A stretch of DNA of 54,614 nucleotides from a virus: IMG/VR virus record IMGVR_UViG_3300047199_000011, positions 1 to 54,614 of that record; one strand, given 5' to 3'. A program made the position numbers and the translations under genes. Numbering within the stretch: the stretch's first letter is position 1; every line of letters starts with the position of its first letter. The notes under the pieces were generated by a model. That model ran no database searches. It was not told the DNA's origin and saw only the letters and a list, made by a program, of their open reading frames with translations. Below are positions 5,454 through 27,324 of this stretch, one piece after another.

Positions 5454-5551
5454 AGAACGTAAGGATCAACTGGCTCACCTTTATTATGGGTGCCCTTATC
5501 GTGTTTGTTGTAAGCGGCGTAAGAAGATTGTTGATGCGCAAATCAGATTAG
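5450..5551 (+). CDS. 33-aa single-span membrane peptide
   Basis: ATG 5450 forms ATGA with the stop of the AAA+ gene, so it is probably coupled. The peptide has a short basic N-terminus, a hydrophobic span (about residues 8-24, FIMGALIVFVVSG) and a basic tail. This frame is preferred over a longer overlapping frame from 5446, whose C-terminal half reads through structured DNA and gives unlikely protein. It may anchor or signal for the AAA+/VWA pair. Confidence 0.6.
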   Translation: MKNVRINWLTFIMGALIVFVVSGVRRLLMRKSD

Positions 5552-5564
5552 AGGAAAGGAGTAA

Positions 5565-5719
5565 GCAACACCGAAGCGAAACGGAGCCGGTAGCGGAGTG
5601 TGCACGCGGTTCTATTGCGAACGAGCGCGAACAGGCAACCCAGCGCGGAGCGGCAACCCGCGGTGAGCAATAGAGTGCGTGCTGCGTAGCGTACGGCGTA
5701 GTGGAGCGTAAAGTGTTGC
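5565..5719 (+). ncRNA. Nested-stem structured element in a gene gap
   Basis: Three nested pairings are visible: GCAACAC (5565-5571) with GTGTTGC (5713-5719), GCACGC (5602-5607) with GCGTGC (5677-5682), and CTATTG (5612-5617) with CAATAG (5668-5673). The core carries the direct repeat GGCAACCC (5634-5641 and 5652-5659) and is very GC-rich. It lies between two coding regions and lacks good coding character. A structured leader or small RNA is plausible. A degraded mobile repeat is an alternative. Confidence 0.45.
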
Positions 5720-5727
5720 AAGACGAT

Positions 5728-5970
5728 ATGAAAATGAGAGCGTTTAGAGGAAGAATGGTGCCAATCAAAGGAGGCACAAACATCCAGCTATGTGCAAGAG
5801 AGATACATCAGCTTAGAGATTTGCTATCAGACAAGATGGCTGAACTCGAGCCTAAGGCAAAGAACAATAAGCTGTACTCTCTTGATTTAACCTATTTCCG
5901 TAGGATATACTCGAAGTTAACTAAACAATGGCGCTGTGTCCATTGTGGAGAGTGGGTGAATCATGGATGA
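5728..5970 (+). CDS. Unknown basic protein with C-terminal CxxC (80 aa)
   Basis: ATG 5728 is chosen because it is the first ATG beyond the structured element; a GTG at 5701 lies inside it. No strong ribosome site is seen. The product is basic, with a helical middle (IHQLRDLLSDKMAELE) and a C-terminal CVHCGEW motif that may bind metal. It overlaps the next gene by eight bases. Function unknown. Confidence 0.6.
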   Translation: MKMRAFRGRMVPIKGGTNIQLCAREIHQLRDLLSDKMAELEPKAKNNKLYSLDLTYFRRIYSKLTKQWRCVHCGEWVNHG

Positions 5971-6160
5971 ATTACTTGAAGCATTAGAGGATATGGTGAA
6001 TCAGCATTGTACTGTAAACGGCAAAGAGTGCCCAGCTTATCTTGATTCAATGGCTCTTTCTGCAAATGCTTATGCTATGCGTGTATTAGCCAAACATAAG
6101 CGTATTGTTATCAAGAAAGAATACGGAAGAAGAATCATTGCAGATTGGAGTAACTCATGA
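5963..6160 (+). CDS. Small helical protein before the VWA gene (65 aa)
   Basis: It begins after GGAGAGTGG inside the previous gene and ends in an ATGA overlap with the VWA gene. The product is 65 residues, helical, with an acidic N-terminus and a basic C-terminus, and two Cys separated by six residues (CTVNGKEC). Tight coupling suggests a partner of the VWA protein. No family recognised. Confidence 0.7.
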   Translation: MDELLEALEDMVNQHCTVNGKECPAYLDSMALSANAYAMRVLAKHKRIVIKKEYGRRIIADWSNS

Positions 6161-7560
6161 ATAGAGTAACCTTTGAAATGCTCGCCAAGTGGTGCGCCGG
6201 TAAGCATAAGGCGAAGGTTGTCTTTGATGCACAGGCAACGGGAGCAAGTTCCAGTCCTCAGAAGAATGAGATTTATATGCCCTGTGATCTTAAGGAGCAT
6301 AACATTCTTGGAGCGTTGGCGTTGCTGATGCACGAAGCCGGCCACTTGAAGCACAGTGGGAAGATACCAAAGGATGTAGCTGATGGCCGTGTAATCAGCC
6401 ACAATATCCTTAATGCGTTTGAGGATATCAGAATAGACAACAAGAACTTTCAGATCCTGGATAATATCCGTGGCTTCTACCAGAAGCTAGTTGACCAGCA
6501 CGTATATCCACGCAAAGAGGAGATGATGAAAGAGCATCTGATGACCAGGTGCTTAATCAACGGCATCCTGCGGAATGAAAGGTTCAACGAAGTCTATGAA
6601 GATGACGAAGCTATCAAGTTCAATCGAAAGCACAATATCCCTAAACTTATGTATCAAGCACAGTGGGATATCGAACAAGGTAACTGGCAGGCCGTTAAGG
6701 ATGCGATTAAGAAGGTAAAGACACTGTTTAAGATAAAGGAGGAGGATGATGTCCAGCAAACAGAACCTTCTGATGTGGGCAACACTGACAAGTTTCTTCG
6801 ACCCGGAGCTGCGTGGGATAAAGGACAAGGCATCAAGGGCCCGAGCAAAGATATTATTGGAGAAGCTGCGTTCCAGGATATTACCAAAGATTCCTTCAAA
6901 GAGCTCCTCACAATTAAGGAAAAGCGGACAGTATTTGAAGGAGCTAAGCTCAATACAGATGCCATCACGTCCTTCTTCACAGGAGATATTGACGATCTGT
7001 TCCACGAACAAGACATCCAAAAGACAAAGAAAAGCAAAATAGCGTTCTGTCTGGATGCTTCAGGCTCAATGCAATCCAGGATGATTGATGGAAGCGACAG
7101 GCAACAGCTATTAGTCAAGACAACCCGCAGCATAATCAATATCCTCAAGGAAATACAGGAGCAGGAAGGATTGAACATCAGCTATGATGTGTGGGCGTTC
7201 GATTATAATGCAGAGAAATTAAACCCAGAAGATTGGGAGCGACAGTATAGCGCGAGAAGAGGTGGCACAAATCTATATCAAGCGTTCCAAGATGTACAGA
7301 ATGACATCCTAGCTAATCAGGAGATCGATGGGAATAAGCTGGTTATCCTGATGACTGATGGTGAGGTAGGATGTGATGAGATCGAGAACCTAAGGAAGCA
7401 AATAATCACTCATGGCGCTGAAGTTAGGTGCATGGTGGTCGGGATAGGCGCTACATTAGGAGGCGCTTTCGTTGAAACAATCGCCGGTGAGAGTAATATA
7501 CTTGGCGAGGAGCACGCTGATAGTGTCATTATGGACACGATAAAGGCGATGCTGGAATGA
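6157..7560 (+). CDS. HEAGH metallopeptidase-like/VWA protein (467 aa)
   Basis: A CobT/DUF2201-type protein. The N-terminal part has HEAGH (H59, E60, H63), a zincin-like zinc site. The C-terminal part is a von Willebrand A domain with an intact metal-ion adhesion site: DASGS (D300, S302, S304), T371 in GGTNLY and D401 in MTDGE. A charged linker (about 185-215) joins them. In this family VWA proteins work with MoxR/CobS AAA+ ATPases, and the AAA+ gene is just upstream. Whether the HEAGH part cleaves peptides is not known. The stop is followed by a GC-rich gap. Confidence 0.9.
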   Translation: MNRVTFEMLAKWCAGKHKAKVVFDAQATGASSSPQKNEIYMPCDLKEHNILGALALLMHEAGHLKHSGKIPKDVADGRVISHNILNAFEDIRIDNKNFQILDNIRGFYQKLVDQHVYPRKEEMMKEHLMTRCLINGILRNERFNEVYEDDEAIKFNRKHNIPKLMYQAQWDIEQGNWQAVKDAIKKVKTLFKIKEEDDVQQTEPSDVGNTDKFLRPGAAWDKGQGIKGPSKDIIGEAAFQDITKDSFKELLTIKEKRTVFEGAKLNTDAITSFFTGDIDDLFHEQDIQKTKKSKIAFCLDASGSMQSRMIDGSDRQQLLVKTTRSIINILKEIQEQEGLNISYDVWAFDYNAEKLNPEDWERQYSARRGGTNLYQAFQDVQNDILANQEIDGNKLVILMTDGEVGCDEIENLRKQIITHGAEVRCMVVGIGATLGGAFVETIAGESNILGEEHADSVIMDTIKAMLE

Positions 7561-12604: not shown

Positions 12605-12933
12605 TTTATTCCGAATAAATCCGGCTCCTTTTCCTTAACTCCGCATATTCCATATACCCCACAGGTAAAACCGTGCATCCCTTTATGCTTCCCCATAAAC
12701 TTAATCTTTCCGCTTTTACTCAAACGAGTAAATGCCTGTTGCACTAGATTATATTTGCTTTCGTTACCAAGTAAATCCCCATTCTCTTTCAGTTTAGTAT
12801 GTAATTCCCGCGCATCCATGCTTTTCCCTTGCGCCTTCAATAAATTGAACACCTTCTGATCAACTATTTCAAAATAACCAACTCCGTTCAACCTATCATA
12901 AGCTTCTTTCGATTGTGCATATCCGTCCATCAT
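12601..12933 (-). CDS. Winged-helix-like protein (110 aa)
   Basis: The sequence has a helical start, then a typical helix-turn-helix stretch (ARELHTKLKENG...YNLVQQAFTRLSKSGKIKFMG, about 41-80), where the last part resembles the wing of a winged helix. It starts in an ATGA overlap with the helicase gene. It may be a replication accessory or regulator. Confidence 0.75.
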   Translation of the reverse strand: MMDGYAQSKEAYDRLNGVGYFEIVDQKVFNLLKAQGKSMDARELHTKLKENGDLLGNESKYNLVQQAFTRLSKSGKIKFMGKHKGMHGFTCGVYGICGVKEKEPDLFGIK

Positions 12934-13964
12934 TTACTCCTTGGCATATCCCTCTCTGGGTCAATAATCTTAGCTTGGAATAAGTCAATTATGTACTCTA
13001 GCTTCTTATCATCAACGATGTCAACGGTAGCTTCCTCCTTAACTTCGCCGGCGGCCGCAGACTGAGCGTCTTTGGGCATGAAGAACGTTGGCTGGTTAGC
13101 AGGAATTTCTTCAAAGCGGTAGTGCTTGGGAATGTATACCAACGGATGAACACCTGTCCTTCCGTTACGGTTCTTAGCTACGATTAAACTAAATGCGCTG
13201 TCATCACTCCCAGCCTTAGTGGCCTTGTCATATCCATCCCAATACAAAAGCATAACTACATCAGCGCTTTCTTCAAGAAACCCCGACTCTTTTAGCTGAG
13301 CCATTGACGGACAATGGTCTTTGACATTTTCAGCACCTCGGTTTATCTGCGAACATAGGATACCTGCGAAATCATACGCAAGGGCCATGTTACGGAAGTT
13401 CCTTAAGTATTCGTTGATGATCTCCCGGGTATCTCCTCTCGCCATCGAGATGTTCTGAACATAGTCAATGATGATCACATCGGGCTTATTTTCGCCAACG
13501 ATATCCAGCAGCTTGGTAATTTCTTCCCAACTCTTGCCGATGTCACAAGTAATCAGCAACTTGAGGCTGACCGCTTCCTCCCTGAATTTACGCCAACGAT
13601 TGCGTATTTCTTCATCCGTCTTAAACTTTCCTGACATGACCGCATAGTTATCTACGCTCATGGAGTGACAGAACAAGCGCTCTACAAGAGCATCGACTCC
13701 CATTTCCAACGATAAGAACCAAACCGTCTTCCCTTGCTTAGCTAAATCAGCAGCAACCTGTAGCGCAAAAGATGACTTGCCCTGCGAAGTCCTCGCCCCT
13801 ATTACTGTCAACGCCCTGCGCCTTAATCCCCAAAGCTTAGTTGATAAGGTGGGAAGCGTAGTGATCGGGAGTTCTGGTGCATCACCACGTTTCCATAGCT
13901 CTGCTTCCAGATCCTCCACCCACGCCTTTATATGTCTTACTCTGTAAAGTTTCTCGTAGCTCAT
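12930..13964 (-). CDS. DnaB-type replicative helicase (344 aa)
   Basis: RecA-fold helicase that unwinds DNA ahead of replication. Walker A is GARTSQGKSS (residues 56-65), Walker B is VIIIDYVQ (D167), and a conserved glutamate follows the LEMG segment near 87. The DnaB-type arginine-containing C-terminal motifs follow (SQINRGAE, LKESGFLEESADVV). It is shorter than DnaB (about 450-470) because the N-terminal primase-interaction domain is missing, as in some phage helicases. No primase or DNA polymerase is seen in the window, so the host's are probably recruited. Confidence 0.9.
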   Translation of the reverse strand: MSYEKLYRVRHIKAWVEDLEAELWKRGDAPELPITTLPTLSTKLWGLRRRALTVIGARTSQGKSSFALQVAADLAKQGKTVWFLSLEMGVDALVERLFCHSMSVDNYAVMSGKFKTDEEIRNRWRKFREEAVSLKLLITCDIGKSWEEITKLLDIVGENKPDVIIIDYVQNISMARGDTREIINEYLRNFRNMALAYDFAGILCSQINRGAENVKDHCPSMAQLKESGFLEESADVVMLLYWDGYDKATKAGSDDSAFSLIVAKNRNGRTGVHPLVYIPKHYRFEEIPANQPTFFMPKDAQSAAAGEVKEEATVDIVDDKKLEYIIDLFQAKIIDPERDMPRSK

Positions 13965-14223
13965 CCCGCTCCTTCCGCAGTATCTTTAACGAATCCTCGG
14001 CCTGCTTACTTAAAACCTCGTTGGTAAAGAGGTGTTTAACCCTTAACTTCTCCATAGTATCGACTTGAGCATCAAGCTCTGACAGTTCCGCCTGCATATC
14101 ACCCACCATACCCATAATCAAATCTTTATGCGGTGTCTTCTGGATATCCATCAAGCAGTCCCAGGCTTCTACATCTTTAGGGTCGTCCATGTTCAGCTTC
14201 TTGCGCACTTCATCAACGCTCAT
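13882..14223 (-). CDS. Helical protein overlapping helicase start (113 aa)
   Basis: An acidic helical protein with a long coiled-coil stretch (about residues 42-95, ELSELDAQVDTMEKL). It overlaps the helicase gene by 83 bases in another frame, and its last 20 residues (Gly/Ser rich) come from that overlap. It starts in an ATGA overlap with the initiator gene. A helicase-loading or adaptor role is possible. Confidence 0.65.
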   Translation of the reverse strand: MSVDEVRKKLNMDDPKDVEAWDCLMDIQKTPHKDLIMGMVGDMQAELSELDAQVDTMEKLRVKHLFTNEVLSKQAEDSLKILRKERDELRETLQSKTYKGVGGGSGSRAMETW

Positions 14224-14933
14224 AGTTCCCTCCCCTTCGGGCCAACAACCTTAGCCGAACCGGGTTTATAATCAATCCAATCCCGCCAGTTATTGAACCA
14301 AGTCTTAGCGTGTTTAATATACCTCTCCTCAGTAACCTCATCCTTTACATAAAGCAGGTAGTTAGCCAACGCTTTCTTAATAGCATTGACATCTTCATCG
14401 CTTTTAACGGAAGTAGTGAAATGTTTAAGCGCGGTAGTTTTATCAAGCTTCTTTGGATACTGTACCCATAACTCAGTGAATACATCTATGTACTTAGATG
14501 TACCCTTATCCTTATCCTTATCCTGTGGAGTAGGCCTAGTCTTAATTAACTCTTGACTAACTCTAACGAAAGACTTACCGTAGAGTTTAATTACCGTTGG
14601 CAAGAGTTGGTGTTGTCTTAGTCGCCTAATCACACCCAGTGTAAAGTTGCTATCTTCTGTTATACCATCGGGATACTGAAAAGCAAGAAACTTGGGTATA
14701 AACCAGTATTTTCCGGTGCATTTCACCCTGCCGTTGAAAACCTCTACGACCTTTTCCCAGTTGACAGGTGCACCAATGACAAATTCGGCGTATTTGTGGT
14801 TCACCTCCCACATACCGGCGCAGTCACAACTGTCAATCAGGAAAAGCCATAGAAGTTTTAGCTCAAGCGATAGGCCGGAGAACCATGCGTCTTGCCACTT
14901 CCCAGTATCTGTAAATCGCTTGTTTATCGCCAT
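14220..14933 (-). CDS. DnaD/phage replication-initiator-like protein (237 aa)
   Basis: GGAGTAAAT precedes the start. The N-terminal half resembles the winged-helix domain of phage replication proteins (LELKLLWLFLIDSCD...GMWEVN...WFIPKFLAFQYPDG). A Lys/Asp linker (PQDKDKDKG) joins it to a C-terminal helical domain ending in WRDWI, like DnaD-type loaders (YIKHAKTWFNNWRDW). It should melt or mark the origin and help load the DnaB-type helicase encoded just downstream. Assignment by domain pattern. Confidence 0.75.
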   Translation of the reverse strand: MAINKRFTDTGKWQDAWFSGLSLELKLLWLFLIDSCDCAGMWEVNHKYAEFVIGAPVNWEKVVEVFNGRVKCTGKYWFIPKFLAFQYPDGITEDSNFTLGVIRRLRQHQLLPTVIKLYGKSFVRVSQELIKTRPTPQDKDKDKGTSKYIDVFTELWVQYPKKLDKTTALKHFTTSVKSDEDVNAIKKALANYLLYVKDEVTEERYIKHAKTWFNNWRDWIDYKPGSAKVVGPKGREL

Positions 14934-15038
14934 ATTTACTCCTTAAACTATGATGGAGAGGAGGGGGCGGAGTGACGTTTTCTCCTGAACTTTAAAACCA
15001 TACTCTTTCCCCCGAACGCATGGTTAACCCCCTAATGC

Positions 15039-15494
15039 CTATTCCTTCATTAGAAACTCCGGTACATCTTCGCCAACGCCAGTTGCCGGCCCTTGATCCT
15101 CGTCCACTTTGAAATCATCCACCTCGTTGCGCTCGCGCTGTTTGTTATCTAGCGTCACGAGAAGATGCCAATACGTTGTCCGACGGATGCACCTATCCAG
15201 CGCTTTGAAGAACGCGCCACTTCCTACTTCGCAGGCGCCAAGTTCTTTAAGGCTGATACCACATCCTTTAACGAGTCGGGCGACACGCCATAAAGCCTTA
15301 TCTGTAAGTGCAGTATGGACGGTGATTGGCTTTCCCACATAGTCGGTTGGCTCGAGAATACTGGCCTTCCATCTAATTTGCTTCGTACCAGTTGATGCCG
15401 TAGTTTCTTCGTAACCATTGATGACGACTTTGTACGTTCCCGCCGGGTAGACTTGGTATTCATTTCCGCCTTCTTTCTCCCAATCCATTTTCAT
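15039..15494 (-). CDS. DUF669-like ssDNA-binding protein (151 aa)
   Basis: AGGAGGCAGCA precedes the start. The start of the product (EYQVYPAGTYKVVINGYEE) and the middle (IRWKASIL, then KALWRVARLVKGCGI) match the DUF669 family as I know it, small OB-like proteins found next to phage recombinases. The C-terminus is acidic (DVPEFLMKE), as in SSB-type proteins. It lies just after the Sak4-like gene, which supports a role in annealing or ssDNA protection. Confidence 0.75.
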   Translation of the reverse strand: MKMDWEKEGGNEYQVYPAGTYKVVINGYEETTASTGTKQIRWKASILEPTDYVGKPITVHTALTDKALWRVARLVKGCGISLKELGACEVGSGAFFKALDRCIRRTTYWHLLVTLDNKQRERNEVDDFKVDEDQGPATGVGEDVPEFLMKE

Positions 15495-15654
15495 TGCTGC
15501 CTCCTAGTATGTTAAGTGCTTCGTTAATGGCTTCCTCGATAGACCCCTTTGGGTAAGGAATCTTCTTTGGATGCCTCTTATTATGTGCTTCGATCTCACG
15601 TTCTAAAACCTTCCAATCAGCTTTCACCGCCAACAACCTCTTTCGCAACTGCAT
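15460..15654 (-). CDS. Small charged protein (64 aa)
   Basis: Starting at ATG 15654 inside the end of the Sak4-like gene, the product is basic then acidic (AVKADWKVLEREIEAHNKRH... GSIEEAINEALNIL) and runs 35 bases into the DUF669-like gene. No ribosome site stands out. It is probably a helical accessory of the recombination genes. Confidence 0.6.
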   Translation of the reverse strand: MQLRKRLLAVKADWKVLEREIEAHNKRHPKKIPYPKGSIEEAINEALNILGGSNENGLGERRRK

Positions 15655-16360
15655 AACTGTATGAGTAGAGTTTGTCAAGGATAGCCGGCATATCCGCAGG
15701 CTCGCCCGCATCAAGCCCCTTGAACTGCGACTTGGTAATGTACTGGTCACTAGGGCCGAACCTCACCCACCGCTTGCCGGTCTTCTCGTACACCTCCAGA
15801 TGGCCAACGACATCAACGATGCCGCACGCCTGCGGAGCCAGCTTCTTTCCAATCATGGGGAACGTTTGGGTTACAATGGCACCGTCGACATTCTTTATTT
15901 CCAATGGTATTTCCCAAGCGTTGAAGATAACCGTAATGTTCTGGTAGACTAAGTCCCTGAATAAGCGAACCCACTCCTTCATTTTGAACCCAACGTCCCC
16001 GTATTCCCTTAGCTCAGGGGTATCTTTCCCCCTGCGGAGAGTAAGGTTGAGTATCAACTGCTGCTCAAGCTCACTCATGTTGTCGATGATAACGTACTTG
16101 AACCCATGCTTCTCTGTGCGCAGGTGCTTGTAGAGGTCATCAACGACTTCCTCAATCTCGTAGCTCTTGATGGCCGCTGGCAGGTTGAAGACGACGTGCT
16201 TCGTCCCCATTAACGGCCCTATCCCGCCCTCCACATTTATAAAGAGGGTTTCTTCCGGCGGTAAGGTCGCGGCCAGCGTTGTCTTACCGACCCCAGGGTT
16301 GCTATAAATTATCATAGCGATACCCCGGCTTAATGTGTCGCTTATCGTATCAAACTTCAT
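15617..16360 (-). CDS. Sak4-like RecA-fold ATPase (247 aa)
   Basis: RecA-fold ATPase of the Sak4/AAA_24 type, which promotes single-strand annealing or strand exchange with an SSB partner. Walker A is SNPGVGKTT (residues 20-28) and Walker B is YVIIDNMSE (around 100). Length is typical for the family. It is followed by the DUF669-like gene and preceded by the Cas4-like nuclease, the usual phage recombination set. The start follows AGGAGG and overlaps the upstream gene by four bases. Confidence 0.85.
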   Translation of the reverse strand: MKFDTISDTLSRGIAMIIYSNPGVGKTTLAATLPPEETLFINVEGGIGPLMGTKHVVFNLPAAIKSYEIEEVVDDLYKHLRTEKHGFKYVIIDNMSELEQQLILNLTLRRGKDTPELREYGDVGFKMKEWVRLFRDLVYQNITVIFNAWEIPLEIKNVDGAIVTQTFPMIGKKLAPQACGIVDVVGHLEVYEKTGKRWVRFGPSDQYITKSQFKGLDAGEPADMPAILDKLYSYSYAVAKEVVGGES

Positions 16361-16545
16361 GTCACCTCCTCACGGGGCTCCTGTAAAATCATTCTTCCAT
16401 CAAGATTATTAAGTTGAGATTTTATCAGTTCCAGTGCAGATGATATGTCGTTAAGCCTCTGCTCATGTTTCAAAATAATCTGATGAAGTTTATTGAGATG
16501 TTCGCTTAAACTCAAAACTTTCCTGCCTTCCTGAAACGGCTCCAT
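16357..16545 (-). CDS. Coiled-coil protein (62 aa)
   Basis: The 62 residues are mostly one amphipathic helix (SLSEHLNKLHQIILKHEQRLNDISSAL). The gene overlaps the next coiled-coil gene by 34 bases and the Sak4-like gene by four. Function unknown; oligomeric accessory likely. Confidence 0.65.
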   Translation of the reverse strand: MEPFQEGRKVLSLSEHLNKLHQIILKHEQRLNDISSALELIKSQLNNLDGRMILQEPREEVT

Positions 16546-16655
16546 TCATCCTCCAGTTTGCTTATCCTTCCGGCTAAATCCGTAATAGCCGTGGTTAACT
16601 CCTTGACTGCATCGAGTAAATCACTCGGCTGTTTCTCCTGATTCTCGTCTGGCAT
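16512..16655 (-). CDS. Small coiled-coil protein (47 aa)
   Basis: GAAAGGAGG precedes ATG 16655. The product is acidic at the start and then a heptad helix (LLDAVKELTTAITDLAGRISKLEDEW) with a basic end. It overlaps the nuclease gene by 35 bases and the other coiled-coil gene by 34. The two adjacent coiled coils may pair with each other. Confidence 0.65.
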   Translation of the reverse strand: MPDENQEKQPSDLLDAVKELTTAITDLAGRISKLEDEWSRFRKAGKF

Positions 16656-17538
16656 CTTTCTCCTCCTTTCGATTAAAGTATAATTGAACTGTTAAATTGT
16701 CTGGTTTCTCAACGAAGCAAATGCGGGCATAAGGACATTCAGAACCAAAGTTCCAGCATTGGTCTTGATTCCGGTAGAACTTATCGATGTTAAACTTAGA
16801 CATTGTGGCGAGCTTAGCCATAATGTCCTCAGCGAGTAGCTTGGTATCTTCTTCAAAGTGGTAGAGGTCGACTGGTGTGCGGTAGGAGAAGTAACGGTTG
16901 TAATACAATTTGGGGCGAGCTTTATAATCGCCAACGATACGGCGGCCAAAATCATCTGCGGTTTCATTCACTCCCTTGCGGAGTAGAGGCTTCTTGATGT
17001 AATCGTAGAGGATGCCTTTGATGTCATAGCCGAGTTTGGTTTCGGCCCATACGTAGCCTGTACCCTGCGAGGAGGTCTGACAGCGCCCTTCAAACTGTCG
17101 TTGGGGAAGGCCGGTGGTCTTTAACTCACGTACCCACCACTTGTCATTCTGCTTCACCCTGCCGTCTATCCTTCCGACGAAGTTGACATTATCGGTAATA
17201 GGTACGGTGAACTTGTCTTCCGAGGCGATCTCCTGGTACTCACGCTTCTTGTAAGGATAGTAGAGCCACATCCCCATGGCCGTGTACTTGGCAATCAGTA
17301 GGTCTTCCCGATCTGCCGCTTCCTGCTTGGAGAGTTCCTCGTTGAACTTATCAAGGATATAGTCATAGACTTCCCCATCAGAACCACCCTTATAGAACAA
17401 ATCAAACCCCTCATGCAGCACCGCGCCAAGCGTTAGAGAAGGGAGCTTAGTAATAGGCTCAAGCCGCATGACGTACCGCCAGTAAAACTTCTTCTGACAC
17501 CCTCTGAACGTACTGCCGTTGTTGTATGATAGCTCCAT
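16621..17538 (-). CDS. Cas4/RecB-like PD-(D/E)XK nuclease (305 aa)
   Basis: Nuclease of the Cas4/AddB type. The active-site core is GRIDG (D125) followed by VRELKTTG (E138, K140), with an upstream LHEGF (His42). Cys14 plus three C-terminal Cys (CWNFGSECPYARIC) fit a Fe-S cluster as in Cas4. Such enzymes trim DNA ends to single strands for recombination. It stands upstream of the Sak4-like and DUF669-like genes. AGGTAAC-type leader upstream is weak. Confidence 0.85.
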   Translation of the reverse strand: MELSYNNGSTFRGCQKKFYWRYVMRLEPITKLPSLTLGAVLHEGFDLFYKGGSDGEVYDYILDKFNEELSKQEAADREDLLIAKYTAMGMWLYYPYKKREYQEIASEDKFTVPITDNVNFVGRIDGRVKQNDKWWVRELKTTGLPQRQFEGRCQTSSQGTGYVWAETKLGYDIKGILYDYIKKPLLRKGVNETADDFGRRIVGDYKARPKLYYNRYFSYRTPVDLYHFEEDTKLLAEDIMAKLATMSKFNIDKFYRNQDQCWNFGSECPYARICFVEKPDNLTVQLYFNRKEEKDARRESGETAE

Positions 17539-17606: not shown

Positions 17607-17813
17607 TCATATAGTTTGGGTCGCACCGTAGGCGCCATTTAACGACACAGCCGGGGGAGTCCCCGAACTTAAAGTTTCAACTGCGTAATCTATCGCATCC
17701 TGCAATTTATCTTCTGGAGTGCCCTCCCAAATATCCTGAAGTTCCTCCTCGATAATCTCAACTTCTTCCCAAGAAGAACCCGTCCTATATTTCCCAACGT
17801 AAATTGGCCTCAC
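17607..17813 (-). CDS. Unknown acidic protein (68 aa)
   Basis: It starts with GTG in a GTGA overlap with the stop of the previous gene. The product has an acidic helical middle (EVEIIEEELQDIWEG) and a C-terminal tail rich in Ser/Gly/Ala. It shares the ID(Y/K)AVE element with the upstream 33-residue gene, so the two may be related fragments. Function unknown. Confidence 0.55.
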   Translation of the reverse strand: MRPIYVGKYRTGSSWEEVEIIEEELQDIWEGTPEDKLQDAIDYAVETLSSGTPPAVSLNGAYGATQTI

Positions 17814-17911
17814 CTCAACTCCTCAACTGCCTTATCTATTGCGGCCTGCACCGGGTCTACGAGGTTATAGGTGTAAGTACAAGGATCGTAAGCATAATGC
17901 CATTCTGCCAT
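17810..17911 (-). CDS. Short protein, first gene of the replication operon (33 aa)
   Basis: AGGAGCTTAAT precedes ATG 17911. An in-frame ATG at 17962 would add 17 residues but lacks a site. The product contains AYDPCTYTYN and ends IDKAVEEL. It is the first small gene after the leader region. Function unknown. Confidence 0.5.
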   Translation of the reverse strand: MAEWHYAYDPCTYTYNLVDPVQAAIDKAVEELR

Positions 17912-18000
17912 ATTAAGCTCCTGTTTAAAGTGGGTGTATAATTCTTTGGCGGCCTCTATCATGCTTGGGGGAACTAGTATGCGGATCAATCATAAAATGT

Positions 18001-18081
18001 CCCCGCTGGTGGCAACCTAACGAGAGAGGCATCTGTGACGATGAGGACCCCGACGAAAGAATCCCTGCCACCAGAACGGGG
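18001..18081. ncRNA. Branched stem structure in the operon leader
   Basis: CCCCG plus CTGGTGGCA (18001-18014) pairs with TGCCACCAG plus CGGGG (18066-18081), separated only by an AA bulge, a 14-bp stem. Inside are CCT/AGG (18016-18029), CATC/GATG (18030-18043) and GGA/TCC helices, so a branched junction is possible. It can be drawn on either strand. It lies between a terminator and the first replication gene. It matches no riboswitch or tRNA I know. Confidence 0.5.
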
Positions 18082-18136
18082 GAAAATAAAATGAGCGACC
18101 TTGTGAGTCGCTCTTAATTAGTTTGGGCTCGCTCAT
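18017..18136 (-). CDS. Possible 39-aa leader peptide
   Basis: GGAGAG lies ten bases before ATG 18136. The frame reads through the terminator hairpin and into the branched structure, with aromatic and Arg-rich residues (FPPFWWQGFFRRG) and ends at TAG. It starts about 40 bases after the promoter. If translated, ribosomes would disrupt the terminator. It may equally be chance. Confidence 0.3.
   Translation of the reverse strand: MSEPKLIKSDSQGRSFYFPPFWWQGFFRRGPHRHRCLSR
18083..18113 (-). terminator. Intrinsic terminator/attenuator
   Basis: On the - strand GAGCGAC, a 7-base loop and GTCGCTC form a perfect 7-bp stem followed by ATTTTATTTT. It lies downstream of the giant late gene, so it can end the late transcript. 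But it also lies about 65 bases after the promoter at 18183-18211, so it can attenuate the replication operon. Confidence 0.7.
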
Positions 18137-18182
18137 GTGATATGCTCTCCGTCGGTATTAAGTGAATCCTTTTCATGCAGCC

Positions 18183-18211
18183 ATATTATCAAAAGAGCGA
18201 AAGTTTGTCAA
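18183..18211 (-). promoter_or_regulatory. Sigma70 promoter of the replication operon
   Basis: On the - strand TTGACA (18211-18206), a 17-base spacer and TAATAT (18188-18183) give a near-consensus promoter. The -35 box overlaps the stop codon of the giant gene. Expected start is around 18176. The -35 context CTTGACAAA is identical to that of the promoter at 54546-54573. Confidence 0.8.
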
Positions 18212-21200
18212 GGGTTTTTCTTAATGTTCTTAATTTGCAAGCGTTTTGTAGTTCGAGGAGAGAACATTTCTACAGCTCGTCGATTACGACGTTCTAATGT
18301 CCGGAAGGGATAATTTATCCCCTCCATGATAGTGCGTAATTGACCGGGATTCAATTCAAGTTCTTCCGCCACATCCGTGGGATCTTCGTAGTTATCACGT
18401 ATTCGTTCGCGGGCTCGCTTAAGAATATAATCGCGCATTTGGCCAGCCTGTTTGACTTCTCCGAACTCAGAAATTGGAGCGCCTTCTTCTGCTCGCGGCC
18501 CACGGCGCAATGTAATACCTCCTAATTGTGCCCTAGTTAACCACTTATCAGTAGTAAGTTGCGGCTGTTTTTCCACACCAAGCGGAACGGTTAAATTCTG
18601 TACGCCCTTACTTAAATCAATAGCCCAGCCTCCGATAATTTCACCTTGGCTATTTCTCATCAACGGAGGAACTGCCCCGTTCTCACGAAAGTAACTTAGC
18701 GCCCGGATTATTTCGCCAACGCCAATGTTTACTTTATTCTGGATGGTTTCTATCGGACGTTCTGAAAGCCCGTATAAGAGCTGAACCTCTCTAAAGTATT
18801 GCGGCTCAATAAAGTATGTAGCGTTATTAACATCCCTGTTACCTAACCACATGGATAACTTATACCCCTTCGGGTTCTTAAACATATCCTTATCATCGGG
18901 AGAACCACCGCGCAAAGACTGTACTGCGTATTGGATCGTCCAGTTAATCAGAATCTTAGCTGCAAATACCTTAATTAAATGCCATGCGTATTTCTTCCAC
19001 AACGTATCTAATTCGCCGGAACTCTTTTCTCCGTGCATAAGAGGGTTAATAAACTGCGTTGCTTTACCGGTTTTGAAAGCATATGCCTTCTGTATACCCT
19101 TCTCAACTGGAGTTCCTTTTACCCCAGGTAACTTAGTTATACCATACGCCGCTCCAGTCAAAATACGTATAGGAGCTGATACAAGATTTCGAGAGAAGAA
19201 CAAGAGCGACCATAACGGGCCAGTCCTGCCGTAAATCGCTGGATTAGGCATAAGCGAAGCATCGTTGATAAAGTCAACGGCGATTTTGGCAGCTTGCCTC
19301 TTATTCATTCCAGGATTCTTGCTCATAATAGAATCCATTTCCGCCTTAGTAACATCATATACGGATTGAGCAATAAGGTTATTGAATATCGCTGCGTTTA
19401 CTCCTCCGAAAGTCAAGAAGAACTCTTTGATATTCTCTGCTCTATCTTTACTAAAAGCAAACTTGCCCAAGTTCTTTGCATCAAAAGCGGCCCTAAGGGA
19501 CATCTCAAAACGTTGTCCTCCAACCAAGCCAAGTTCAATAAACAACGGAAGCTCATCATTTTCAGGTGACATGGGGGCATCGGCATACTCCCCTTTAAGC
19601 ATCTGTGCTCCCGTGCTGAATAGCTTAGGGCCTGTCTTAATAAGATTCTTCGCAAACGATTTATACACCTTACCATTCAAGCTCAACAACACCGGAGCAA
19701 GGTAGATGAGGTTTGTATCAAACGGGTTGATCGTCTTCCACCTGCGGATGAGGGTTAATACTTCGTTGGTATTACGCAGCATTTCCGTAGTATTAGAAGA
19801 AGCTCCCCTACCGTACATGGTTTCCAATATAGAATACAATGACTGGTGAATATACGGATTTTGAAAAGCTCCGCGATACCAGAGAACGAGTCCGGGAGCA
19901 TCTTTGGCCGCAATATAACCATACTTGGTGAACCATTTGTTCTCGGTTATACCTTCAGCAGCGGCCTTCTTAGACACTTCATGCTCATAAAGAACCAATG
20001 GATACCCGGCAGCAATTTCGATATTCTTGAGATACTTTAATGTTTCTAACTGATCGATAGTGAGCAGGCTATCAGTAACATACTGCTGCATTTGTGCGAC
20101 ATAATCATCTATAGGAACAAGCCCTTGGCCGCCAGCTTGCTGGCTTTCCGCAGGTGCAAGAGGCCCACGCTGTATCATCCACGGGCCAGTAGCCATAAGG
20201 TATTCTTCATATGTCCTATATTTGGCCGACTCTATCGCAGCACTTGATAGCGGCCCACCCATCCTTCTGGAAGCGGACATAGAACCTACTTCCTGCGTAT
20301 CGGCATATCTCCACACCCTGTTGATAAAGCCCTCCAAAATGTTATTAGCCATGTCGGCCTTATCAAGGATACCAAGCTCCATCATCCTATTAAGATGTGG
20401 AGTTTCAACCTCTGCCTTAACCCAGCGCAATAGTTCTTGTAACGTACCATCTTTACAAACGTTAGGATGAGCAAGCATCTTATAGAAGAAGTCCTCCGGA
20501 CGCTCCTGTGCTAGGTAGTCCTCGAGAGGAACACTAGTAGGTACGGAATAAATCTGACGCATCCATACTTCATCAACGCCAAGCCTCTGCATGAAGTATT
20601 TGGCCCTATTTACAAAGGCCACCGCTTCAGCGTTGGTATCATTACGGAATTGCCCTGGTTCGTGTATATGCTTCTCACCTATTTTAGTCCTTGCCCTATT
20701 GACCGAATCACCTTCTTTGCAATAAAACTCTACTCCGGCAGAAGACATAAGTTGTCGGATAAGCTCACTCTTATATTGCTTGTCGCTTTTCTTAAGCTGA
20801 GGATTATCACGCATGATGATATCGATGATAACCTTGTCCACCGGAAACATCTGGTCGTAGGATACCTTTGCCGCTTCATCAACTGACAATTTGCCTTCAT
20901 AAAGACGAGCAACAACATCTTGAGATACAGGTTTAGCTTTTGGTATGCGCCCGAAAAGCTGCTGTGTCTTCTTTGGTGAAACAAGCTTACCAATATGACG
21001 CATTATGGAATCTTTGGTTTTAGTAGCACGCATAAGCTCGAGAAGAACGCGAGCTTTAATCTTACGTTTGTATATCCATGGTTCATTAGGTTTCATGGCC
21101 TTACGCTGACCACGGTTGCTAGTAGCTTTCTGGGAGTTATATGCAGGCCTGGCCGACCAATCTATACCGAACATCACGGGGTTATAATAGGTAAACTCTA

Positions 21201-24200
21201 GCGGAGCTTCTTTGCCCGATTCACGTATCCTATTATTATCAACTAGCATCCGTTTTAACCTATCAGGAGTTATAAGGACATCGCCAATGCGATAAGCTAC
21301 CGCATCAGGGCTAATCCCCCCGCGCACAGTTCCATCTTCCATAACTGACTTCACTTTATAGTCGCCTACAAGGGTAACAGTTATAGCTAAACCGCTTACA
21401 GGATCAGTTCCTGTGATGGTAAATGGCTTCTTCGTTGTTATCCCAACATACTCCCCAGTAGCTTCAGTAGAACCATCAGCAACGCTTTCTCCAAATAGCT
21501 TGTTCTGTTCAGCCTTCAATCCATACTGTTGCTCAGGAGTCATAGACCGGTACATGGCGTCAAGACGGTCTTCATACTGCATCTTAACTATACCCACATT
21601 CGCTCCAGCACTTGTAGCTTCAACCATCGCAGCCTGTAATGCCATATAGTTAGAAATGACAGCCTTGTCTTCATCACTAAGAGTAGAAGGTTCTTCGTCA
21701 AAATCATCATCTTCTTCCCTTGGCTCAGTTACTACCTCAAAGTCATCATAAAGCTCCCTGGCTTCACGCACCATCTGCCCGCGCACCGCCTCAGATACTC
21801 CATAAGTACCACGCTTCTCTAAATCTGCCACAAGCTTCGCCAACGATTTAGCATCCCTGTCACCTATAAGGCCTCTTTCTTCATCGCTCATCCCAGCCTT
21901 AAGATCTTCGAGTAAGCCGTGGTATATCTTATATGTAGCATCGTTGATATCGATGCCCTTACTTGTTTCAGCCGCAATACGTGTGAGCCTGGCTATCTCT
22001 CGATTAAGTGATTCAACCTGTGGATTTAATCTCGAGTATGAATTGGGGTTCTTAGCATCCGTAAGCCAGTTAATCCTGTTCACCGCACTACGTAACCTTT
22101 CTTCATTGGTGGGGCCGTTGGTAACACTGACTTCCTTTGGGTCGCTAGACTTTAACCTACTAATAAGCTCTTTAAGGTAATCTATTTCCTCAGTAGTTTC
22201 CTGCAAGCGTAAAGCAAGGCCTTTAACACCTTTCCTTGTGGGATATAGCTTGCTATATGCCTCATCTATACGCTCTTGGATGCTTAACCTGGTAGCCTTA
22301 GAGGTCATGGCTTCTTCCATATCCTCCATAGTTTGCAGATAATTCTTTACAGCATAAGTGACTACCCCATGGATAGTATTCCCCTGCAAGTCTACCCTTG
22401 CTTCCGGGTCACGATACTTATTTCCCTCTTGCATAGCCTCAGGAATAGCATCCAGCGATCCATAATAAACAAACCCAGAAACTAACCTATTCACATCTTC
22501 TCTGCTGAACTCAATGCCAAGGAATCTCTTGAGCCATGTCCTCAAATCTTCAAGCAAGCTAATATACCAAGACTTCGGAGGTTCTGTATTAAATCTTTCA
22601 GACCAACGCGCAGCTAACTCCATGTAAAGACGAAGTTCTCCTCTCGGATCATCACGATCAAACCCATAATCTGCAACAAGCTGATCAAGAGAAGTGTGGC
22701 CTGTTGTACCTAAAAGCTCTGGAGCCGCTTCCATCAACTGAGCTTTTGCCCCTCGAAAGATATTAAGTAACTCCTGCGTTTGCCCTAAGTCATTAGCTAC
22801 CTGCGCTAAACCACGGTGAGTAATCTCATGCAGCACTTTCTCAATTACATCTTCTTCGTTCACATGATCCAAAGATATCAAAATCTTATCCATTACCGGA
22901 TCATAAGCAGCAAGAATATCCCTGGAAGTAGCAGAATAATATGGGCCAGAACGACCTGCAAGCCTTTCTTCATAACCCGCCATGAACTTATATTTGCGAA
23001 CCATTGCCTCTTTCTCAAGAGTAGGATACCTTCTGATATTCTTGGCCTGTCTTGTCCAATGAGGCTTCCTGCGGGGGACAGAAGGTACATCACGCTCTAT
23101 CCCGTACATCCCTGATTCTATCTTCTCCCTACCTGAATACTCGATCAGTTCTGGATGATCAGCCATCATTCTGAAGAATACAGGAAGGGCATAAGGAAGA
23201 TCTCTGAAATTATTGTTACGGTAGAACTGCGGATCTTTCTGCCGCCTCTTTAAGCTCTCAATATCAGATTTCCTATACTTAATACCTTCTTCCATATTTT
23301 CTCTCTGCCAAGTAGACAAATCTTCTTTCTGTAATTGTCTTTCAAGCCTGGTAATTTCGTCCTGCTTCTTAAGCATCTCCTGGCCATAAGAACGTACTGC
23401 AAAAGCCTTGTCCTTAGCGAGCTGTTGTTCTAATCTAAGGCTAATGTACGCATCATAGATATCCTTAGGCACATTACAAAACTCGGGATCTTCAGCAACT
23501 GAAGCAAAATCTCCTCCAGCATCGAGTATAATCCTACCTAAAGCCATCAGATTCTCGTACTCCTTAAGGAGCTTTTGGTATTGGAAATTACGGTTAGCAT
23601 AAAACTCAGCCCAGAACTCTGCCGGAGTTTGTTCAGCTCCGTAACCTACTGTTTCGGCTATTTTCTTATCCTTGAGTTCACGGCGGCCAAGCAGGTAATC
23701 AACGCTTTGCATTATAAGGCGCTTCCTCGAAGTGTCAAATCTTGCTCCCGTCATCTGGTCAGCAAGCTTTAATTCTGTCAATCCCGCTATCTGCTGGAAT
23801 AAAGCGACATCAGCTTCAGCAGTAAAGTTAGGCGCATCGTCTTCCCATAGCGCGTAATAAGGCGTTTCGTTACTTAAGAAAGGGATGCCTTCTGAGCTCT
23901 TTGGTCTTGGTTGCCACCGCGCACCTTCCAACGCTTCTTTCCAGCGTTCATTCATCCGCTTATTTTCGAGGATAACGTAGTAAGCATTGGAATACTGATT
24001 ACGCCTTTCCTGTATGTTAGTATAGATGGCCGCAGGGATATGCCTGTAAGGGATGTTGTTTTGACGGAGTAGATTATCCATCGCTTCTTGATTTACCGGA
24101 GCCCACATACGAGAATGGACTCTCTTGGTGAAAGTAAAATCATTGAGAGAATAACCAGCAAACAAGTTAGGCATGAGCGTATAGATTGCGCGGGTTAGAC

Positions 24201-27200
24201 TATCCGCACCCAACGCACGAACACCTTCTGCCATCTGCATCTGAGTGGCTATCTCAATTATCGTATCTTCCATCTCCTCCATCTGAGCGTTGATTCTTTC
24301 TTGCTCACGAGATTCTTCATAAGAATTATCAGTGAGGCCGCGGTCTTTAGCCCTTTTGGCCTTACGCAAACTCCTATCCGACCGCCAATCAATAGCTATG
24401 GAACTAAGAAAAGCAGTCACATCATCGTAATCATCAATGGGGCCGATTTCGGAATTAAACTTATTTGTCACTGTCCTGAGTTCATCACCATCTATTTCAA
24501 TGCCGGCAGTAGTTCCGTTCTTCCTGACAAGCACCCATTGATCATAACGAGAGATATAGTTTATGGCTGCCCCACGGCTGGTACACCAAGTCTTAGCAGA
24601 CAATTCCTCAAGCGCAAGAGCATCAGGAGAGTTCTCAGTGACTGCGGGATTCTTGGGAAAGAAATAGAACATCCCTTCTCCGGACTTAGAAAGAGTACCT
24701 TTACGCCCTTCAGTTGCCAACTTGACTACGATAGACTCATATCTCTTTTGTATACCACCCTGATTAGGATTTTGGTCATAATACTTCTTGACCTCATCCA
24801 CAGCTTTCCGGTTGAAAGAACGCATTGTGGGATCGACTGTCTTATCATCCATCAAGTCTTTAGTGACAACATCATACAGGAAATAATCAAACAAGCGGTC
24901 ATGTAGATTATGCCCAGCCCTTCCATCAAGGTAACTATTCCAGGCCATCAATCTATACCCCGCCCAATTCTGCAAGAAACCTGTTTCATCTGCATCATTC
25001 GCTCTCTCATCAATCTTCTCCGCAGCTTCACGCTGTCGTCTTAAAAGAGCGCCCTCCACATAAGACGTAAATTCTTCTTTGTTGGAATACTTCTCAGGAG
25101 AGATTTTCTCTCTCTGAACAAAGAACTGAGCATGACCTTCTGTAATGCCCTTATTTGCCAACTCTCCGGCCAACGCTTGATACAAACCGGGAGAATCCAT
25201 TATCTTATCAACAAATACAACATACCTGCGGGCCGCATCCTTAATGAACTGAGGAAGGTTGCTCTTTTCTATCTTGTCACGGAGCCTGTTTTCCTTATAC
25301 GCCATATTAAGCTTTTCAACAAGCTCATCTGTAGCAATATCACCGCCTGCATCTTTTGATTTAGGAGCAGTAAGATTACCTTGATTGATCACCACTTCAG
25401 AAGCGTTTTGCTTGGCGTCATCATCGATAGCTTCCTCTACCTCTTTATTTACTGCATTGGTTTGAAGCAATGCTTGCTTTTCATATTCAGCAGCAAAAGA
25501 TTTGAACACTGGTTCAGTAAGATTGACACCATCTTTAATCTCTGTCTGCGAAACCTTAACCGTGCTCAATGGTATGTTTTTAGTCACAAGGTAAGTAGCG
25601 ATATTCTTAAGAGATGTCTTAGCCATGAACGGACTAAAGAACGCTTCAGTACCAGTATCTATCCCAGCTTGCGCCTCAAGAGCAGACTTCTTATCAACCC
25701 CTGATATGAAAATGGTAGGCTGATTACGTAATTCATTGATGAACCCTTCGACATTAAAAGAATTACCAGTCCGCTCAGCAACAAGTATCTTCCCAACAAT
25801 GATATTACGCAGAGTCTGGTCAAGATCAGGAAATCCCATCTTCCTCCGGATGTTCCCTTGCTGCTGCACAAGATTTATCTCACCAAGAATACGATTAGCT
25901 CGAGCAGTAGCCCGCATATGCTCATCACCAGTAAACTCTGTCATAGTGTTCTGTTCACGAACAGTCCCTGCCTGAGATGTCGTAGTTATATTGCTTTTAA
26001 GTAAATCAGAGAAAGGAACAACTACATCCTGCGACTCAAGTTTAACCTTCTTCGCACCTAACCATTCTTTACGCTTTTCTTCAAGACCTTGTTGAGCCTT
26101 GGATATAATTTCTCCCATAGCCTTTTCAGCCTGTTCCTTCTTTGCTTCAGACCTATAAGTAAACGGAGCAGTAACAAGACCCGGGACAGAAAACGCAGCG
26201 AGTTCTACCAATAATTGTTCAGAAGAAGGAAGGGCCCATTTCTCTTGCCCAGTTACTGCATATCCTATATCAGCAATACGTTCTTCAAACATTTCTCCCG
26301 CTACACCATGCCATTGAGTAGTTTTGAATAAGTCGTTAATCTTCTTTGTCTTTACGAAAGGATTGACCTTCTTGATCGCGCGAGTGAAAGCATTATTGAT
26401 AACAGAAGCAGGAACATACTTTGATAACTCCTGAATTAAGCCGCCAGAACGTTCAGATACAGTTTCCACCCATCCCATTACCGCAGCGCTTTCAACTGCC
26501 CGCGATGGGGACTTACCAGGAGTAGTCCCAATGCTTCCATCTGACCGTATAGAGATATCTGGAGTACGTTCTTGGGCATACTTCTCAACCATACGAGAGC
26601 TCATAGCTACCGGAGCCTGGATAGTACCGGCCACAAGGCCTCTTGCTACTTTAGAAACAGTACCAGCAACGGTTTTCTTCGCAGCAGTAGGAATAATCTT
26701 ACTAGCGATTTGCGTAAGCCCTGCCCTTCCGGCAACCTCAGCAGCCTTACGAGAAAAGATGTTCTGTACTACCTTCCTAGTTCCTTGTTCAAGTATTGTT
26801 TCGCCAAACTTTGCTACTCCGCCAGTGAGGGCGATCTCTCCTGCGAAAGCGGGTAGATCTTGAACCACATTAGAAATCTTATAAGGGATACTCTCCTTAC
26901 GCTGTAGTTTATTGACTTCGTTCTGGATTAAGGAAGCATCTTCGGGGGTAAGCGGTTTATCTTTTGATAGTTTTGATACTGCTTGCCAGGTTGGAACTTG
27001 TTTGGCAATAGACTCAAGTGTCCCAAGAAACGGAACTTGTCTTAGGGGGCGTGTTTCTTTGAAAGACGTACCTAATGTAGCAGGAGCAGCACTGATCGGT
27101 TTGCCATAAAGCATCTCCTGGTTCTTCTTAACTATGGCTTCAATATCCGCTGTACCATAGACCTTCTTAACTTCCTCAGGAGAAAACTTTCCAAGATACT

Positions 27201-27324
27201 CACGAACAGAATCCCATTCAGAAGGAGCGGTAGCTTTAACGTTTAACTTTACATCAGAAACTGGCTGCCCAACTTGACGGATATTCGTTATAGCTTTACG
27301 TATATTCTCAACCTTGATAGGCAT
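18208..27324 (-). CDS. Giant polyvalent/internal virion-type protein (3038 aa)
   Basis: A single 3038-residue frame starting after GCAGGAGTAAT. It resembles the giant polyvalent proteins of phages, which carry many domains and are thought to enter the cell with the DNA. Visible parts: a Gly/Ala-rich hydrophobic N-terminal region (about 125-250); a WCTSRG-containing domain near 910, which resembles a domain of such polyvalent proteins; HEITHRG (H1499, E1500, H1503), a zincin-like site; an acidic linker near 1870; and a C-terminal region with hydrophobic segments (near 2710 and 2790). It is last in the late operon after tail genes, where T7-type internal virion proteins are encoded. I found no RNA-polymerase or lysozyme motif. 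Confidence 0.9.
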   Translation of the reverse strand: MPIKVENIRKAITNIRQVGQPVSDVKLNVKATAPSEWDSVREYLGKFSPEEVKKVYGTADIEAIVKKNQEMLYGKPISAAPATLGTSFKETRPLRQVPFLGTLESIAKQVPTWQAVSKLSKDKPLTPEDASLIQNEVNKLQRKESIPYKISNVVQDLPAFAGEIALTGGVAKFGETILEQGTRKVVQNIFSRKAAEVAGRAGLTQIASKIIPTAAKKTVAGTVSKVARGLVAGTIQAPVAMSSRMVEKYAQERTPDISIRSDGSIGTTPGKSPSRAVESAAVMGWVETVSERSGGLIQELSKYVPASVINNAFTRAIKKVNPFVKTKKINDLFKTTQWHGVAGEMFEERIADIGYAVTGQEKWALPSSEQLLVELAAFSVPGLVTAPFTYRSEAKKEQAEKAMGEIISKAQQGLEEKRKEWLGAKKVKLESQDVVVPFSDLLKSNITTTSQAGTVREQNTMTEFTGDEHMRATARANRILGEINLVQQQGNIRRKMGFPDLDQTLRNIIVGKILVAERTGNSFNVEGFINELRNQPTIFISGVDKKSALEAQAGIDTGTEAFFSPFMAKTSLKNIATYLVTKNIPLSTVKVSQTEIKDGVNLTEPVFKSFAAEYEKQALLQTNAVNKEVEEAIDDDAKQNASEVVINQGNLTAPKSKDAGGDIATDELVEKLNMAYKENRLRDKIEKSNLPQFIKDAARRYVVFVDKIMDSPGLYQALAGELANKGITEGHAQFFVQREKISPEKYSNKEEFTSYVEGALLRRQREAAEKIDERANDADETGFLQNWAGYRLMAWNSYLDGRAGHNLHDRLFDYFLYDVVTKDLMDDKTVDPTMRSFNRKAVDEVKKYYDQNPNQGGIQKRYESIVVKLATEGRKGTLSKSGEGMFYFFPKNPAVTENSPDALALEELSAKTWCTSRGAAINYISRYDQWVLVRKNGTTAGIEIDGDELRTVTNKFNSEIGPIDDYDDVTAFLSSIAIDWRSDRSLRKAKRAKDRGLTDNSYEESREQERINAQMEEMEDTIIEIATQMQMAEGVRALGADSLTRAIYTLMPNLFAGYSLNDFTFTKRVHSRMWAPVNQEAMDNLLRQNNIPYRHIPAAIYTNIQERRNQYSNAYYVILENKRMNERWKEALEGARWQPRPKSSEGIPFLSNETPYYALWEDDAPNFTAEADVALFQQIAGLTELKLADQMTGARFDTSRKRLIMQSVDYLLGRRELKDKKIAETVGYGAEQTPAEFWAEFYANRNFQYQKLLKEYENLMALGRIILDAGGDFASVAEDPEFCNVPKDIYDAYISLRLEQQLAKDKAFAVRSYGQEMLKKQDEITRLERQLQKEDLSTWQRENMEEGIKYRKSDIESLKRRQKDPQFYRNNNFRDLPYALPVFFRMMADHPELIEYSGREKIESGMYGIERDVPSVPRRKPHWTRQAKNIRRYPTLEKEAMVRKYKFMAGYEERLAGRSGPYYSATSRDILAAYDPVMDKILISLDHVNEEDVIEKVLHEITHRGLAQVANDLGQTQELLNIFRGAKAQLMEAAPELLGTTGHTSLDQLVADYGFDRDDPRGELRLYMELAARWSERFNTEPPKSWYISLLEDLRTWLKRFLGIEFSREDVNRLVSGFVYYGSLDAIPEAMQEGNKYRDPEARVDLQGNTIHGVVTYAVKNYLQTMEDMEEAMTSKATRLSIQERIDEAYSKLYPTRKGVKGLALRLQETTEEIDYLKELISRLKSSDPKEVSVTNGPTNEERLRSAVNRINWLTDAKNPNSYSRLNPQVESLNREIARLTRIAAETSKGIDINDATYKIYHGLLEDLKAGMSDEERGLIGDRDAKSLAKLVADLEKRGTYGVSEAVRGQMVREARELYDDFEVVTEPREEDDDFDEEPSTLSDEDKAVISNYMALQAAMVEATSAGANVGIVKMQYEDRLDAMYRSMTPEQQYGLKAEQNKLFGESVADGSTEATGEYVGITTKKPFTITGTDPVSGLAITVTLVGDYKVKSVMEDGTVRGGISPDAVAYRIGDVLITPDRLKRMLVDNNRIRESGKEAPLEFTYYNPVMFGIDWSARPAYNSQKATSNRGQRKAMKPNEPWIYKRKIKARVLLELMRATKTKDSIMRHIGKLVSPKKTQQLFGRIPKAKPVSQDVVARLYEGKLSVDEAAKVSYDQMFPVDKVIIDIIMRDNPQLKKSDKQYKSELIRQLMSSAGVEFYCKEGDSVNRARTKIGEKHIHEPGQFRNDTNAEAVAFVNRAKYFMQRLGVDEVWMRQIYSVPTSVPLEDYLAQERPEDFFYKMLAHPNVCKDGTLQELLRWVKAEVETPHLNRMMELGILDKADMANNILEGFINRVWRYADTQEVGSMSASRRMGGPLSSAAIESAKYRTYEEYLMATGPWMIQRGPLAPAESQQAGGQGLVPIDDYVAQMQQYVTDSLLTIDQLETLKYLKNIEIAAGYPLVLYEHEVSKKAAAEGITENKWFTKYGYIAAKDAPGLVLWYRGAFQNPYIHQSLYSILETMYGRGASSNTTEMLRNTNEVLTLIRRWKTINPFDTNLIYLAPVLLSLNGKVYKSFAKNLIKTGPKLFSTGAQMLKGEYADAPMSPENDELPLFIELGLVGGQRFEMSLRAAFDAKNLGKFAFSKDRAENIKEFFLTFGGVNAAIFNNLIAQSVYDVTKAEMDSIMSKNPGMNKRQAAKIAVDFINDASLMPNPAIYGRTGPLWSLLFFSRNLVSAPIRILTGAAYGITKLPGVKGTPVEKGIQKAYAFKTGKATQFINPLMHGEKSSGELDTLWKKYAWHLIKVFAAKILINWTIQYAVQSLRGGSPDDKDMFKNPKGYKLSMWLGNRDVNNATYFIEPQYFREVQLLYGLSERPIETIQNKVNIGVGEIIRALSYFRENGAVPPLMRNSQGEIIGGWAIDLSKGVQNLTVPLGVEKQPQLTTDKWLTRAQLGGITLRRGPRAEEGAPISEFGEVKQAGQMRDYILKRARERIRDNYEDPTDVAEELELNPGQLRTIMEGINYPFRTLERRNRRAVEMFSPRTTKRLQIKNIKKNP

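Follow-up and report, generated by a model that had tools for sequence, protein, structure and literature searches.

The window analysed here, the whole 54,614-nucleotide stretch of viral record IMGVR_UViG_3300047199_000011, carries on its minus strand a replication and recombination block (12930..17538) encoding a PD-(D/E)XK nuclease, a Sak4-like annealing protein, a DUF669 SSB-like protein, a replication initiation-like protein and a DnaB-type helicase. The first SD-preceded frame past the leader (17810..17911, minus strand; AGGAG, ATG at 17911, with an in-frame TTG upstream at 17989) is the start of this block. Two small adjacent ORFs at 17607-17989 on the same strand have a C-terminal motif in common (AIDKAVEEL / AIDYAVETL), together with a DNA repeat of 82% identity, perhaps the trace of a tandem duplication. 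On the other side of the leader lies a minus-strand ORF of 3038 aa (18208-27324), which takes up one sixth of the genome and shows a weak match to LPD14, a large polyvalent protein; its homologues in related contigs are giant too and located ahead of the replication genes, and a protein search of viral contigs with its C-terminus gave no match. Elsewhere in this phage, the plus strand at 4287-7560 encodes an AAA_5 (MoxR-like) ATPase followed by a VWA-domain protein.

An initial annotation had described, at 17911-18211, a promoter, a leader ORF, a terminator and a branched stem. That observation is confirmed: all of these parts are present, on the minus strand, and their true extent is 18211 to 18001. 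The promoter (18183..18211) consists of a -35 element TTGACA (18211-18206), a 17-nt spacer and a TAATAT -10 element (18188-18183) that is extended, with TG, to TGATAATAT. It had been called strong, in agreement with its promoter score, the third best in the whole window. Its -35 element overlaps the stop codon of the 3038-aa ORF, and in the relatives the promoter likewise lies where the giant gene has its stop codon. Transcription is predicted to start at about 18176 on the minus strand, and the leader has a start codon exactly at this +1, from which a 20-codon, leaderless ORF (18114..18176, minus strand) runs to a stop just before the terminator; an ATG at +1 is also present in the relatives L008, L027, L030 and L014. 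The 39-codon frame with a ribosome site that had been annotated as reading through the terminator lies at 18136-18017 (18017..18136, minus strand), has GGAG upstream, and ends within the branched stem. Another possible leaderless start occurs on the plus strand at 3133-3337, where an ATG at about +2 of a strong promoter opens a small Cys-rich ORF (YECYSCGK...CLECC) ahead of the DNA ligase gene.

The intrinsic terminator, T1 (18083..18113, minus strand), has an 8-bp stem (18113-18106/18100-18093), a 5-nt loop, a predicted energy of -13.0 kcal/mol and a U-rich tail, UUUUAUUUU, that extends to 18083. It begins ~63 nt past the predicted start, where the annotation had placed a terminator about 65 bases past the promoter. 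With strict stem and tail criteria, 3 distinct terminator sites, T1 included, were found on both strands of the 54.6 kb, against ~0.3 sites per strand under a first-order null; a looser scan gave no excess over the null (3 vs 2.7). Between the window and L008 the T1 stem shows a compensatory change, from GAGCGAC/GUCGCUC to GAGCAAC/GUUGCUC. A separate promoter between the terminator and the first gene at 17911, which the annotation had named as the observation that would speak against it, is absent from the window scan at a score of at least 9/12 on the minus strand. Two further elements were considered and rejected. Pairing of AUGAGCGAGCC with GGUCGCUCAU could form an antiterminator of T1 in the window (-11.2 vs -13.0 kcal/mol), but it may be a chance pairing because L008, judged by eye, lacks such a complement. 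The TCGCTC repeats, four copies in ~110 bp, were considered as operators; two of them form T1, and the palindromic operator pattern is absent. Far from the leader, a strong terminator-like hairpin at 54138-54106 (minus strand) lies within a 200-aa ORF (53887-54489) adjoining the terminase.

Directly after T1 comes the branched stem, P1 (18001..18081, minus strand), whose 14-bp closing stem (5+9 bp, 18081-18066 with 18014-18001) encloses three hairpins. This is the 14-bp branched stem annotated ahead of the replication genes, and the region folds more stably than expected, with a z-score of -3.9 and 0/200 shuffles folding equally well. Nothing in the window matched a riboswitch or other Rfam family at the gathering score, and matches to MicX, at E 0.2-0.3 only, were taken as chance. 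The junction also suggested a self-cleaving ribozyme or a tRNA-like element, for which neither Rfam nor ARAGORN gave a match.

With the nuclease and Sak4 proteins as queries, a scan of viral contigs yielded about 24 non-redundant relatives. Those with the same leader order have nucleases 43-68% identical to that of the window, and even diverged relatives preserve the succession of promoter, terminator, branched stem and replication genes. In several of them the giant ORF ends just ahead of the replication genes. A terminator and/or a branched stem follows the giant gene in L008, L027, L030, L026, L028, L033, L034 and L031 and precedes the nuclease in L013 and L032, and the leader of L024 lies at the start of a lytic transglycosylase-like ORF (identified by eye). 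Three leaders have T1 only (L010, L014 and L018), and the branched stem of L027 has a C4-like, two-hairpin form. Four other relatives (L016, L020, L021 and L025) have the same promoter with merely a short leader, without terminator or branched stem, so the attenuator-like leader is dispensable. As a separate observation, L024 carries at 5844-6040 a 10-bp terminator-like stem with U7 within the first 45 codons of the transglycosylase-like ORF, and the loop of this stem is complementary to the ribosome-site region. No close DNA relatives were found among cultured phages; a search of genome contigs gave two weak protein matches only, and the nuclease of one Yersinia phage is 22.8% identical. The layout, kept in distant relatives with different letters, points to what may be a real on/off switch.

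The relatives also bear on the earlier proposal that termination conditionally controls the replication operon. In L008, L013, L031, L032 and L018 the U-tract of the terminator directly abuts the SD and start codon of the first gene, and thus a second promoter cannot fit; the proposal gains from this comparison with relatives, in that five of them leave no room for a promoter. The same evidence weighs on the idea that the interval from promoter to T1 is a small-RNA gene that adjoins a structured 5' UTR of no relation to it, the replication genes being transcribed from upstream or from a weak internal promoter. The unit ended by T1 is compact, as such a gene would be, and atypical promoters can escape consensus scans. 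However, upstream transcription would have to pass T1 too, the interval from T1 to 17911 holds no promoter of at least 9/12, and the two supposedly unrelated parts are complementary to each other and recur together, as set out below. We therefore regard the small-RNA gene as very improbable.

The complementarity in question joins the 5' part of the leader to the interior of the branched stem. In the window, the segment L1 (18124..18157, minus strand) carries the start signals of the 39-codon ORF, its GGAG SD and its AUG, and L2 (18015..18052, minus strand), the interior of P1, can pair with it in a duplex of 27 bp and -31.4 kcal/mol that spans both SD and AUG. The window by itself gives p about 0.02. 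Across 12 leaders, the 5' part (L1, near the start of the leader ORF) is complementary to the branched-stem interior (L2), and permuting the partners among these 12 non-redundant leaders gave p = 2e-5 (0/20000 in another run). The result was the same, p = 2e-5, when the three leaders in which P1 and L1:L2 had been spotted together were omitted, and again p = 2e-5 without the window; T1-type leaders alone gave p = 1.4e-4, and comparison with dinucleotide shuffles gave a Fisher value of 1e-8. Because the stem boundaries in the permutation tests were set by hand, we added an automatic test on segments of fixed length (60/140 nt). It separated the leaders from 55 other promoter-like sites at a Mann-Whitney p of 8e-4, and the controls were flat (p = 0.51); this is a looser test of self-complementarity, since in some leaders the segments may take in P1 or T1 arms. 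Pairing is weak in L008, the closest relative (p about 0.24), and in L032. The letters of L1 and L2 are unrelated between leaders while their pairing is preserved, as can be seen in L027 (GGUGCGGA/UCCGCACC), L030 (GGUGAGGA/UCCUCACC), L026 (AAGGGUGGGAU/AUCCCACCCUU), L034 (CCAUGAGA/UCUCAUGG) and L013 (AGGGCGUAUAAC/GUUAUACGCCCU). This complementarity across the family is a new observation. The position of L2 also speaks against the self-cleaving ribozyme considered above: unlike in HDV-like ribozymes, L2 lies on either side of the hairpins depending on the relative.

The two structures compete in prediction. For the window RNA up to 17974, the P1 fold is predicted at -58.7 kcal/mol and the L1:L2 fold at -56.1 kcal/mol; L1:L2 is the best predicted fold until the 3' arm of P1 has been made, after which P1 is narrowly ahead. 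Because the L1:L2 duplex is nearly isoenergetic with the P1 fold, the leader RNA is predicted to be bistable. In 11 of the 12 leaders L1:L2 is present in the predicted fold of the partial transcript, and the complete RNA is predicted to refold to P1 in some of them, about half. Counting only the pairs in the fold prediction, the excess over shuffles has p = 0.01. Taken together, the stretch is a conserved attenuator-like leader with a predicted two-fold RNA switch; we infer that T1 terminates, that the switch operates and the direction in which it does so.

Of the two routes of control proposed earlier, an RNA fold is thus favoured by the family-wide complementarity, while leader translation, the other route, has the weaker case. 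One form of it is ribosome-coupled attenuation of the pyrBI type, in which a ribosome catching up with the polymerase would prevent the terminator, stalled or absent translation would stop the operon, and L1:L2 would act as a second-line brake on translation of the leader. Of 15 leaders, 12 have an ATG ORF that crosses the terminator, and most leader ORFs have an SD or start at +1. The stop codon of the leader ORF overlaps the start of the first gene as TAATG in L027 and as ATGA in L010 and L018, is adjacent to it in L030, and several more leader ORFs (L028, L031 and L034) make short overlaps with the first gene. In addition, the leader ORFs of L027 (6403-6603) and L030 (5130-5321), which start at the predicted +1 and stop at the nuclease start codon, encode related proteins of 63-66 aa with a C-terminal CGC..KLCSKHxRY, for which no Pfam match was found. 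The ribosome effect on near-start terminators can, moreover, change with pausing, as in pyrBI. Against this, given the open frames of T1, the 39-codon ORF alone would cross it with a chance of 52%, and with the terminator held fixed the family shows 12 crossing ORFs against 6.7 expected of 15 (P = 0.0017), an excess that is real but modest; an earlier value for this read-through, P = 6e-13, came from too generous a null and was discarded. The crossing ORF is absent in L032 and L014. Furthermore, the terminators lie mostly 25-55 nt past the leader start codon, a distance at which translation in Escherichia coli lowers termination by only about 10%, and terminators no more than 100 bp into a coding region are almost fully active there (PMC4824070). 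Ribosome-coupled attenuation would also leave the match of L2 to L1 unexplained, and we consider it unlikely.

A protein could also decide the fate of the transcript. In this reading, a constitutive promoter followed by a near terminator awaits a Q- or N-like phage antiterminator that modifies the polymerase, and the L1:L2 pairing would be incidental or part of the loading site of the antiterminator. Late promoters under Q control are likewise followed by a terminator, and terminators recur past several promoters in these phages. However, no Q- or N-like match was found among the proteins scanned, in which small ORFs were only partly covered, and the L1:L2 complementarity goes unexplained; protein antitermination seems to us quite unlikely.

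The arrangement of an RNA fold that would control its own operon invites comparison with phage immunity and prophage RNAs. C4 antisense RNA is processed by RNase P to a stable RNA of ~77 nt. In P1/P7 c4, hairpin loops within a closing stem are complementary to, and cover, a ribosome-binding site (PMC5320573); P1 of the window likewise has a 14-bp closing stem with three internal hairpins, and L2 pairs with the SD and AUG of a leader ORF in the same operon. The c4 RNA differs in that it is transcribed ahead of its target and cleaved by RNase P, whereas in the window the target comes before the antisense. IsrK of Gifsy-1 exists as a terminated short form and as a read-through mRNA, with about 30 nt of pairing in cis or trans and two folds within 1.5 kcal/mol, and its authors regard it as a structural homolog of P4 SeqA (PMC4825925). 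The window resembles this isrK/orf45-anrP system in its promoter, in a putative short RNA that would end at an intrinsic terminator, in a putative read-through mRNA with a small ORF, in ~30 nt over which the short RNA is complementary to the RNA downstream, in two near-equal alternative folds formed by leader and read-through pairing (here in prediction), and in a putative stable RNA downstream of the terminator. Unlike Gifsy-1, where the regulated ORFs lie downstream and encode a control protein, the complementary start region here is upstream and the operon is that of replication, and neither the sequence nor the Rfam isrK model matches.

The order of the window is the same as that of the P4 immunity leader (SeqA/isrK RF01394 and CI/C4 RF01695), in which a promoter and a terminated RNA of ~78 nt are followed by a branched RNA of ~87 nt, a closing stem with hairpins, which carries antisense to the leader, with the replication operon next; by cmscan, P4 has isrK at 8692-8615 with its terminator and then C4 at 8507-8420, before the replication operon. 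The two differ in that P1 of the window directly follows T1, and in that the strongest P4 target is downstream (seqC, p = 0.002) while in the window family only the upstream target is significant; a downstream target like seqC was not significant in any leader. The C4 model found no match at E <= 10 in the window and 24 relatives (P4 control, 74.9 bits), and the isrK/SeqA model none above its cut-off in the same set (P4 control, 60.8 bits). Attenuators of the pyrBI type also share with the window a leader ORF that runs through an intrinsic terminator toward the first gene, and differ from it in that the window terminator is very near the start codon and is followed by an additional branched stem, which complements the start of the ORF. 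The best reading of these comparisons is that the window leader may work like the P4 and IsrK systems and is not a member of their families; likeness of working, not membership, is claimed because the covariance models are unmatched and the P4 downstream target lacks a counterpart.

We suggest, at somewhat better than even probability, that this stretch controls the replication operon by transcription attenuation, through a single leader RNA for which two folds compete. The polymerase would start near 18176, and in some or most cases it would halt at T1 and release an ~90-nt RNA carrying L1. Polymerases that pass T1 would make P1, whose interior L2 complements L1. Pairing of L1 with L2 would close the ribosome site of the leader ORF, while formation of P1 would leave it open, and the fold or partner that wins would set the amount of replication mRNA made and translated. 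This could happen in cis; in trans, the agent would be the short RNA ended by T1 or an RNA processed from P1. Such a working would be that of the Gifsy-1 IsrK and P4 SeqA/CI RNAs. Lysogenic immunity is an unlikely purpose because no integrase was found among the proteins scanned.

It is tempting to go further and see here a widespread, unrecognised class of phage leader, in which the mRNA holds, on a branched hairpin past the terminator, an antisense to its own start, and terminated and read-through RNAs titrate each other so that RNA alone times the onset of replication, the P4/IsrK principle at work outside immunity and in unrelated sequences. This wider idea is speculative, and we hold it to be rather doubtful. 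If the leader works as suggested above, the principle of SeqA/CI and IsrK, known from P4 and from Salmonella prophages, would also time replication in uncultured phages that yielded no lysogeny genes. Because the pairing persists although the letters are entirely different, covariance-model searches miss such leaders; a search by architecture, for a promoter, a terminator and a stem with an anti-start interior, could reveal many more, and the leaders so found would allow simple reporter tests of RNA-timed replication.
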